Shown here one piece after another: positions 5,481-8,686 of a stretch of 64,000 bases of DNA. The DNA is taken from NCBI GenBank assembly GCA_035527755.1, contig DATKZX010000002.1:1-64000 (forward strand), written 5' to 3'. The notes below the pieces were generated by a model. The model ran no database searches, was not told the origin of the DNA, and was given only the letters and a program-made list of their open reading frames with translations. The first letter of the stretch is position 1; each line of letters opens with the position of its first letter. Source of the stretch: Methanomassiliicoccales archaeon. GTDB taxonomy: Archaea > Thermoplasmatota > Thermoplasmata > Methanomassiliicoccales > UBA472. Made by a program: the position numbers and the translations under genes.

Positions 5481-6698
5481 ATGTCCCAAGGACCAATGAA
5501 CGCCAGGTTGATCTACAAGTTCTTCGAGGCGGCCAACATGCAGCGGTGGAACGACCATATCCGCCCGGTCGAGCTGACGGAGCTGGACAAGCAATCTCAT
5601 AAAATGGTCATCGCCTATGTGCTGGCGAAGTTCGAGGAAACCGAAAAGAGCAGGAAAATCGATTGGACAAAGATCATTGAAGGCGGCATCTTCGAATTCC
5701 TGCATAGGATATTCTTGACCGACCTTAAACCGCCGGTCTTCCACCGCTTGCAGAAGGAGAAGGGACGGGAACTGAACGAGTACGTCTTCCGCGAACTCGT
5801 GTCCGAAGTGCCCGATATCGACCCGGAGTTCCTGGAACGATTCAAAGCATATCATTCGGAACAGGACGAGAGCATCGAGAGGCGCGTCCTCAAGGCGGCG
5901 CATTACCTGGCGACGAACTGGGAGTTCCGGTTGATCTATGCTGCCAACCCGACGATGATGGGGATCGAGGATACGAAACGCAACATCGAAATGCAGATCG
6001 AGGACCATTACGACCTCATCGGTGTGCAGCGTGTAATGCTGGGTAAAAAATCATATGGTTTCATAGAATTCTGCGGGCAGCTGCGATACCAGCAGCGTTG
6101 GGCCCGGGCGCCGCGCATCCCCAGGACGTCCGTCCTGGGACATATGTTGATGGTCGCCATCATGTCCCACCTCTGCTCGCTGCGCATAAATGCCGGTCCG
6201 CAGCGCGCGATGAACAATTTCTACACCGCCCTGTTCCACGACCTGCCAGAGGTTCTGACGAAAGACATTATTACTCCGGTCAAGAAGTCTGTAGGCGGTT
6301 TGGAGGAGCTCATTGCTGAGTACGAGGAACAGGAAGTGAAGGACAAGCTTCTGCCTCTGCTCCCGGCCACTTGGCGCAAGGATTTCGAATACCTGCTGCT
6401 TGATCCCTTCCGCAATCGGGTGAGGGACAGAACAGGGGTGACCAAGGAAATGCCCTATGAGGAGATCAACTCCTCGTACAACGATAATGATTCTTGGGCG
6501 GTGGACGGAAGAATGTTGAAGGGATGCGACAATCTGGCGGCGTTCATCGAAGCCGCCTCGTCCATTAAATATGGCATCAGCTCGAGGGTGCTGCGCATGG
6601 GAAAGCAACGACTATTGGAGTCATACAAGGAGATGGGCAGCATCTCTGACATCGATTTCTATCGCCTGATGCAGGAAATGGACGAGATGGAGATATGA
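5481..6698 (+). CDS. HD-domain phosphohydrolase (YfbR-like group)
   Basis: Metal-dependent phosphohydrolase, probably acting on nucleotides. The 405-residue protein carries H221 in SVLGHMLMVA and the HD pair at 253-254 in TALFHDLPEVLTKDI, with later metal or substrate residues in the D-rich region near 340. The HDLPE motif is the same as in YfbR-type 5'-deoxynucleotidases, but this protein is twice as long, with about 200 extra residues at the N-terminus. The exact substrate is not known. The downstream gene is convergent and abuts it exactly (6698/6699). Confidence 0.8.
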   Translation: MSQGPMNARLIYKFFEAANMQRWNDHIRPVELTELDKQSHKMVIAYVLAKFEETEKSRKIDWTKIIEGGIFEFLHRIFLTDLKPPVFHRLQKEKGRELNEYVFRELVSEVPDIDPEFLERFKAYHSEQDESIERRVLKAAHYLATNWEFRLIYAANPTMMGIEDTKRNIEMQIEDHYDLIGVQRVMLGKKSYGFIEFCGQLRYQQRWARAPRIPRTSVLGHMLMVAIMSHLCSLRINAGPQRAMNNFYTALFHDLPEVLTKDIITPVKKSVGGLEELIAEYEEQEVKDKLLPLLPATWRKDFEYLLLDPFRNRVRDRTGVTKEMPYEEINSSYNDNDSWAVDGRMLKGCDNLAAFIEAASSIKYGISSRVLRMGKQRLLESYKEMGSISDIDFYRLMQEMDEMEI

Positions 6699-7409: not shown

Positions 7410-7769
7410 ATGGAGGGAGAGCGAATATCACTGCGCCTCGAGAACGAGGACCTGGAACTTATCGATGGATTCATCGAAGGGCATCCGGAGATCTCGAACC
7501 GATCGCAGTTAGCAAGGATCGCCCTCCGCGCGTTCATTGATAGGGATGGTGGAACGCGGATCGAAATCTCAGGCAAGGGTCAACTTACAATAAATGTCCC
7601 GCCGGCTATCCGTAACATAATGGAAGGGATGGTGGAGGATGGCTACTACAACACGGTGGAGGACATCATCGGGGAATGCCTGAGGAAGGAGTTCGTCTCC
7701 AGAGAGAACCTGGACAATGTCAAGGACGATCTCTTCCACAAGGGCAGGCAAGCCCTGGCAAATTTGTGA
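7410..7769 (+). CDS. Double ribbon-helix-helix regulator (CdrS/CdrL-like position)
   Basis: The 119-residue protein has two RHH modules: residues 4-46 (ERISLRLENEDLELIDGF...RSQLARIALRAFI) and about 60-105 (GQLTINVPPAIRNIMEGM...TVEDIIGECLRKEF). Each has the strand-helix-helix pattern of CopG/Arc-type DNA-binding proteins. AAGGAG at 7394-7399 precedes the ATG. The next gene, 101 nt downstream on the same strand, is ftsZ. In haloarchaea a short RHH protein, CdrS, is co-transcribed with ftsZ2 and controls division genes; the neighbourhood here suggests a similar role, by inference only. Confidence 0.8.
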   Translation: MEGERISLRLENEDLELIDGFIEGHPEISNRSQLARIALRAFIDRDGGTRIEISGKGQLTINVPPAIRNIMEGMVEDGYYNTVEDIIGECLRKEFVSRENLDNVKDDLFHKGRQALANL

Positions 7770-7870
7770 AGGACCAGCGGACAACTCTGAGCGCAGAGGG
7801 ATGGGATGCACTAACTTACCTTAGCGGAGGCGCTGTCACGCGTTCCGCGTTGAAAACGGGGGCCTAAAAA

Positions 7871-8686
7871 ATGGAAGTCGGGGTAATACAACAGACGATC
7901 AGGACCGAGCAAATGGTATCGATGCTCAGCCGGGGCCTGACAGAGCCAAAGATATCGGTGGTGGGATGCGGGGGTGCTGGTAACAACATTGTTAGCAACA
8001 TTTTCGGTAGCTGCAAGAAGAACGTGCAGACCGTAGCCATCAACACCGATGAGAGATCACTGCAAAAGGTCAACGCGCACAAGAAGCTGCTCATCGGCAA
8101 GGATGTGACCGAAGGGCGCGGCGCTGAGGGTTTCCCGGAGGTCGGGGAGTACTGCGCTGAGTGTGCCAAGGACGCCATAAAGGACGCCATAAAGGACCGT
8201 GATATCGTGTTCGTCATCGCCGGGATGGGCGGCGGCACCGGGACAGGTACAGCTCCAGTGGTGGCCCAGGTGGCCAAGGACCTTAATTCGATCACATTCG
8301 TCATTGCGATCACGCCATTCTCCTTTGAGAAGGATAGAATGGAGAAGGCTCAGTATGGCATATCTAAGATCAAGAAGATAGCCAAGACGACCGTGGTAGT
8401 GGAGAACGATCGGCTGATGAACATAGCGGAGGAGCTCCCTCTGAACAAGGCCTTCTCGGTCATAGACCGCAGCGTGGTGAAGATCATCGACTCCTTTTGC
8501 TCCCAGGTGAGCATGTCGTTCATGAACGCCCTGACCGAGGAGGTCATGCAGTTCATGCAGGGCAATACGGAGGAGTCCCACGTGATGAGCGCTCAGTACC
8601 TAATGCCTGAGATGGTCATGGCCAGCAATGGTCCAGCGGACATGGAAATGCGGCCGAGCGGCGAGCTGCCCCCATTAATGCGCTGA
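7871..8686 (+). CDS. ftsZ: FtsZ-family GTPase, short form without T7 loop
   Basis: Tubulin-like cell-division GTPase, but only 271 residues against about 350-390 usually. The nucleotide-binding half is intact: GCGGAGNN at 32-39, NTD at 58-60, GRGAEGFPEVG at 82-92, the tubulin signature GGGTGTG at 120-126, TPFSFE at 149-153 and END...R near 178-181. After helix H7 the expected T7 loop (N-x-DFAD), which completes GTP hydrolysis in the next subunit, is missing, as is the C-terminal domain. An unrelated, Met-rich 60-residue tail follows. No other frame restores the missing part before the next gene, so this is not a simple frameshift. Confidence 0.88.
   Translation: MEVGVIQQTIRTEQMVSMLSRGLTEPKISVVGCGGAGNNIVSNIFGSCKKNVQTVAINTDERSLQKVNAHKKLLIGKDVTEGRGAEGFPEVGEYCAECAKDAIKDAIKDRDIVFVIAGMGGGTGTGTAPVVAQVAKDLNSITFVIAITPFSFEKDRMEKAQYGISKIKKIAKTTVVVENDRLMNIAEELPLNKAFSVIDRSVVKIIDSFCSQVSMSFMNALTEEVMQFMQGNTEESHVMSAQYLMPEMVMASNGPADMEMRPSGELPPLMR

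Follow-up and report, generated by a model that had tools for sequence, protein, structure and literature searches.

A conserved short FtsZ without T7 loop or C-terminal domain, encoded at an FtsZ2-type locus in Methanomassiliicoccales and related archaea

A stretch of 64,000 nucleotides from a Methanomassiliicoccales archaeon (contig DATKZX010000002.1, here called the window) carries a short ftsZ gene whose product keeps the GTPase domain of FtsZ and lacks the T7 loop and the C-terminal domain. Our preferred reading, to which we assign a probability of about 0.5, is that this product is a conserved GTPase derived from FtsZ2, has lost the polymerising half, is encoded in an RHH-ftsZ2 locus and serves division as a GTP-dependent switch or adaptor. 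Sequence comparison establishes the identity of the protein, its conservation, its locus, the parts that are missing, the GTP site that is kept and the uninterrupted helix pattern; the way in which it would act is proposed from what is generally known of FtsZ.

Results

A first, sequence-only reading of the gene had described all GTP-binding motifs as intact, and the match to the Tubulin/FtsZ domain bears this out (Table 1). The residues of the GTP site are kept at GCGGAGNN (residues 32–39), PEVGE (89–93), GGGTGTG (120–126), PFSFE (149–153) and N179, and in an alignment of the GTPase domain the GGGTGTG signature is conserved in short and full-length forms alike. The best Foldseek match of the predicted fold is M. 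jannaschii FtsZ (1w5a, E 4.4e-21). In both fold and sequence this protein (1w5a/1fsz) is the best match for the N-terminal domain, at approximately 40% identity, and the match ends close to the end of H7. The top 49 PDB sequence matches of the short form are all FtsZ (E down to 2.6e-45). Membership of the CetZ, TubZ or tubulin families was rejected, as these FtsZ matches are far stronger than those to 4b45/4b46, which we take to be CetZ (E 2.7e-11 or weaker), or to TubZ (3.8e-6). The NCBIfam ftsZ model TIGR00065 is matched at model positions 16–201 of 353 only, and the whole-protein score of 210.7 bits falls below the curated cut-off of 295.2, a shortfall that we count against reading the protein as an FtsZ2-derived GTPase.

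Table 1 Features of the short ftsZ locus, in positions of the window.
Feature	Position	Strand	Description and evidence
RHH gene	7410..7769	+	119 aa, CdrS/ParD-like, apparently two RHH-type segments; Pfam and synteny
Conserved 12-mer GGGATGGGATGC	7798..7809	+	61 nt upstream of the short-ftsZ ATG
Short ftsZ, putative FtsZ2-derived GTPase gene	7871..8686	+	271 aa, ATG start, open frame
N-terminal helix at the H0 position, residues 1–20	7871..7930	+	AlphaFold2 helix 3–20; EQ-V-LS-G pattern kept in f1–f5
Tubulin/FtsZ GTPase domain, residues 27–186	7949..8428	+	Pfam PF00091, E 2.6e-41; Foldseek
GGGTGTG tubulin signature (phosphate loop T4), residues 120–126	8228..8248	+	Direct reading
Predicted extended H7 helix replacing H7-T7-H8, residues 191–234	8441..8572	+	Amphipathic, no NxDFAD; AlphaFold2, hydrophobic periodicity, T7 columns
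Predicted disordered C-terminal tail, residues 235–271	8573..8683	+	Hydrophobic C-terminus; AlphaFold2 pLDDT

The same reading held that a short unrelated tail stands in place of the T7 loop and the second domain, and both parts are indeed absent. The TIGR00065 match stops at model position 201, and a profile alignment of short against full-length FtsZ ends at the H7 terminus. The three key T7 columns, which in an alignment of 36 full-length FtsZs of the class hold N, D and D at frequencies of 1.00, 0.97 and 1.00, are most commonly Q, T and E in the short forms of families f1–f5 of the order. The next open reading frame, NAD-kinase-like, begins 110 nt past the stop codon, and there is therefore no second-domain remnant of useful length. 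FtsZ_C (PF12327) gave five matches in the genome from which the window comes (G000), none of them on the contig of the short gene (C2).

In an AlphaFold2 model made from seven orthologues (mean pLDDT 74, core mostly >90), a single uninterrupted helix is predicted to span H7, the position of T7 and H8, with a pLDDT of about 67–79 over residues 191–230; values fall below 50 across residues 232–271, in keeping with a disordered tail. A regular hydrophobic stripe covers the entire extended-helix stretch in 30 orthologues. Separately, congeners differ synonymously in a smaller share of codons within this stretch (8441–8572) than elsewhere (0.20 vs 0.33, with a random-column p of 0.002).

An NxDFAD motif hidden in the tail, which the sequence-only reading had named as an observation that would overturn it, was looked for by alignment and in the predicted structure and was not recovered. 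The stretch NALTEEVMQFM aligns loosely with NxDFADVxxxM and was rejected as a degenerate T7 loop, as neither the N nor the first D is conserved. The last T7 position (position 46 from N179) is often acidic, with D or E in 25 of 30 f1–f5 sequences. Around residues 246–252 the tail holds a PE-hydrophobic-AS stretch, present in 13 of 30 f1–f5 tails against 0.6 expected from shuffling, for a pattern that was defined after the tails had been inspected. The short form ends in PPLMR and has no archaeal GID-type SepF-binding tail, so the usual SepF tethering would not be expected for it; three of the full-length paralogues in G000 end in VDFIK, LDFIR and IDFVN.

A comparison with homologues from related archaea, a check suggested at the outset, revealed that the short form is conserved across both order and class. 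A match was obtained in 139 of the order's 147 genomes; short open frames occur in each of the six families (f1–f6), and orthologues in Methanomassiliicoccus sp. and Methanomassiliicoccaceae MAGs. Outside the order it is carried by all seven f8 genomes searched (E <1e-83), and more divergent forms without a C-terminal domain (CTD) occur in f7, f11, f12, f16, f17, f19, f20, f26 and f28 of the same class. Among the best matches listed for other classes of the phylum nearly all are full-length open frames, and the 14 full-length genes fetched from these classes all keep NLDYAD or NLDFAD. Within the genus, dN/dS is 0.06–0.10 in the GTPase domain and 0.2–0.6 in the tail; the GTPase part is under purifying selection. 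A frameshift, which the first reading had named as a refuting finding, or an assembly error is excluded by these dN/dS values and by the recurrence of the same short form in independent genomes. More broadly, a full-length ftsZ turned into a pseudogene, frameshifted or misassembled would account for the missing C-terminal half and for nothing else; such an artefact deserves next to no credence given the length class shared across unrelated assemblies and families, the purifying selection and the nearness of the downstream open reading frame.

The gene immediately upstream encodes a ribbon-helix-helix (RHH) protein. The Pfam RHH_8 match of the window copy is weak (E 0.0016, under the cut-off), and its orthologues match RHH_1/RHH_8 above the cut-off. 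Each of the 77 short-ftsZ loci examined is immediately preceded by an RHH gene on the same strand, as found with a profile of nine seeds that were drawn from some of these same loci. Full-length loci of the class have an RHH neighbour in one case out of 43, the exception (L006) being an FtsZ2-type gene of G000. Five further full-length FtsZ2-type genes of the class also have this neighbour, as do 13 of 14 from other classes, and FtsZ1-type genes are without it, both labels having been assigned by synteny and not by named reference sequences. It is known that cdrS-ftsZ2 forms a conserved archaeal division operon (PMC7439475) and that ftsZ2 is often found beside parD (PMC8178401). As an RHH neighbour is common to the short and the FtsZ2-type genes, the short gene stands in an FtsZ2-type locus. 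The constant pairing might instead mean that the short form senses GTP in partnership with the neighbouring RHH regulator, so that GTP or division state would feed into transcription of the locus. We consider this very improbable, because the same neighbour is found at full-length FtsZ2 genes and inherited locus structure explains the linkage better. On contig C26 of G000, at about 40.2–46.3 kb, three full-length ftsZ genes (L003, L004 and L006) are clustered, one of which is FtsZ2-type with its own RHH gene.

In the tree, one branch separates all 56 short forms from 36, and later 50, full-length forms (SH-aLRT 85 and 87). This split is compatible with a single truncation and does not prove it, the support being below the starred level, and the long-branched short forms found across the class could include more than one truncation. 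The short forms fall outside the starred FtsZ1-type clade and nearest to the FtsZ2-type genes (supports 80–92), these labels again resting on synteny and not on named references. On present comparisons the short form is best read as a class-wide FtsZ2-derived paralogue without the polymerising half. It resembles cdrS/parD-linked archaeal FtsZ2 in its GTPase domain, its RHH neighbour and, more tentatively, its tree position; unlike archaeal FtsZ2, it has no T7 loop, C-terminal domain or GID-type tail, and its H7 is predicted to be extended.

We infer that the 12-mer GGGATGGGATGC found upstream of the gene is part of the short-ftsZ system. It occurs at the same place in most orthologous short-ftsZ loci of f1–f5. 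G000 holds four copies (in the window and at C4:63358, C6:21431 and C19:17353) vs none of the reversed control, and each of the 16 class genomes searched holds one to six, again with no copy of the reversed control. Of the other copies, which occur in either orientation, the one on C4 precedes an SMC-like gene and the one on C19 is close to an SRP54-like gene; with copies near SRP54-like and other genes as well, a role as a simple division-gene operator is no more than possible. A structured RNA was rejected (no Rfam match, folding z-scores near zero), as was a peptide, since the reading frame varies between genomes. Further upstream, positions 5481–6698 (+) encode a 405-aa protein in which the N-terminal half has no Pfam match and a YfbR-like HD domain covers about residues 194–373 only.

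A search of the genome for a full-length FtsZ, also proposed at the outset, returned five, together with one divergent FtsZ-like protein: the seven PF00091 matches of G000 (99.7% complete) are the five full-length proteins with FtsZ_C, the short form and the divergent one. Families f1–f5 resemble G000, with four to eight FtsZ_C matches each. SepF is present in all f1–f5 genomes searched and weak or absent in f6. The divergent protein of f1–f5 (L007, at C13:2985-6224 in G000, as well as L081-L083, L085-L088 and L092) has the signature GLGGETGS or similar, a weak FtsZ_C match or none, and no NxDFAD.

Family f6 probably corresponds to the Methanomethylophilaceae, gut methanogens that form the largest family of the order. 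For ISO4-H5, a rumen methanogen whose 16S is 96% identical to that of Methanomethylophilus alvus, a wall or S-layer was not seen (PMC5011839). We found no credible FtsZ_C match in 25 f6 genomes, eight of them single-contig, the best (E about 0.1) lying in the frames of other proteins. Of the 25, 24 carry the short form, which is degenerate in G038 and G040; the exception is G028. In this last genome (genus g20, 96% complete) an FtsZ-family protein was not detected. A profile search identified a second, divergent paralogue in most f6 genomes, including all eight that are single contigs; by profile alignment it spans the N-terminal domain (NTD) and the CTD, with a shortened T7/H8 segment and without NxDFAD. 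This paralogue was not found in G024, G083, G090, G110, G111, G115, G117 and G118, among others, where the short form stands alone, and in the near-complete genomes G111 and G118 the short form is the sole detectable FtsZ-family protein. Judged by these searches, f6 retains no near-canonical FtsZ other than the short form, which calls for an explanation of how this family divides. No Snf7 (ESCRT-III) match was found in the order within a 400-genome sample of the class, using a weakly sensitive model for which the Sulfolobus control itself fell under the cut-off.

Discussion

In an FtsZ protofilament, each subunit must cover the nucleotide of its neighbour with its T7 loop and C-terminal domain. 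The short form has neither the bottom interface nor the catalytic T7 acids and, as judged from established FtsZ biology, should therefore be unable to build canonical head-to-tail protofilaments. We propose that it would bind GTP, with hydrolysis by the normal two-subunit route not expected, and that its nucleotide (top) face would bind a partner in the GTP state. Ancestrally this partner may have been the exposed bottom face of a full-length FtsZ filament, the short form then serving as an end cap in the manner of SulA or MciZ, which are bacterial FtsZ inhibitors acting at the filament end. The likeness would lie in the proposed mode only (the bottom face at a filament end), as these proteins are unrelated to the short form. 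Dimerisation, or the recruitment of another factor, may fall to the long amphipathic helix at H7 together with the tail. The five full-length FtsZs encoded in G000 are possible partners, with which a cap, one of the roles suggested in the first reading, is compatible. A cap cannot be the whole story, because f6 lost the FtsZs with FtsZ_C and kept the short form, and G111 and G118 have no other detectable FtsZ-family protein; for f6 the proposal needs another partner, be it the divergent CTD-bearing paralogue or an unrelated factor, or else a new assembly.

The situation in f6 also invites the idea that the short form assembles on its own into a non-canonical oligomer or filament, using its amphipathic helix and a new nucleotide-face contact, and serves as a division scaffold at least in that family. 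This would agree with its standing as the only near-canonical FtsZ of f6 (and as the sole one detected in some near-complete genomes), with the strength of the hydrophobic stripe along the extended helix, and with conserved T3-loop residues by the nucleotide that are specific to the short form, such as F88 in f1–f5 (D in f6). The catalytic acids and the bottom face are absent, however, and f1–f5 genomes keep several full-length FtsZs, and we regard independent assembly as unlikely.

Less probable still, in our view, is an obligate pair similar to alpha/beta-tubulin, in which the short form would join a CTD-bearing partner (the long FtsZ2 in f1–f5, the divergent paralogue in f6). Each of the eight f6 genomes that are single contigs has exactly two members, one short and one CTD-bearing, and the second spans both domains, as such a pair would have it. 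Against it, the f6 partner likewise lacks NxDFAD, the two f6 genes are far apart, and G024, G110, G111, G117 and G118 show the short form alone.

A switch or adaptor stays our preferred reading for the protein at large. For f6 in particular we tentatively suggest, at somewhat less than even odds, that these archaea divide without canonical FtsZ; their division GTPase would be a single-domain FtsZ2 derivative without T7 and CTD, working as a switch or as a new assembly, in some genera without another FtsZ-family partner and without ESCRT-III.

FtsZ homologues that lack the standard C-terminal domain were already known in the form of FtsZl1 (PMC2875224). FtsZl1/Tubulin_2 (Makarova and Koonin 2010, PMC2875224) is likewise an FtsZ-like GTPase with no recognisable FtsZ C-terminal domain, but its sequence has diverged strongly and its architecture includes a coiled coil and an alpha-helical domain at the C-terminus, whereas the short form is close to FtsZ. 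Membership of this family (PF13809) was rejected, the short form scoring 19.2 bits with a cut-off of 27. The haloarchaeal CdrS-FtsZ2 operon (PMC7439475) has an RHH gene directly upstream of ftsZ, as here, but haloarchaeal FtsZ2 has the C-terminal domain that the short form lacks. In the open literature, searched by terms on archaeal SepF/FtsZ, FtsZ/tubulin evolution, ESCRT evolution and Methanomassiliicoccales genomes, we found neither a class-wide short derivative of FtsZ2 nor the loss in f6 described.

A GTP site held under strong selection in a protein without the polymerising half raises the question of what this site is for. The loss from f6 of every FtsZ with a recognisable CTD, together with the retention of the short form, points to a mode of division based on something other than canonical FtsZ chemistry. 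Surveys that score FtsZ as present by the GTPase domain alone would wrongly credit f6 with a normal FtsZ. Elsewhere in the class, many near-complete genomes of family f22 (genera g56 and g88) gave no FtsZ match; an ESCRT-III match is present in several of these, in agreement with PMC11188069.
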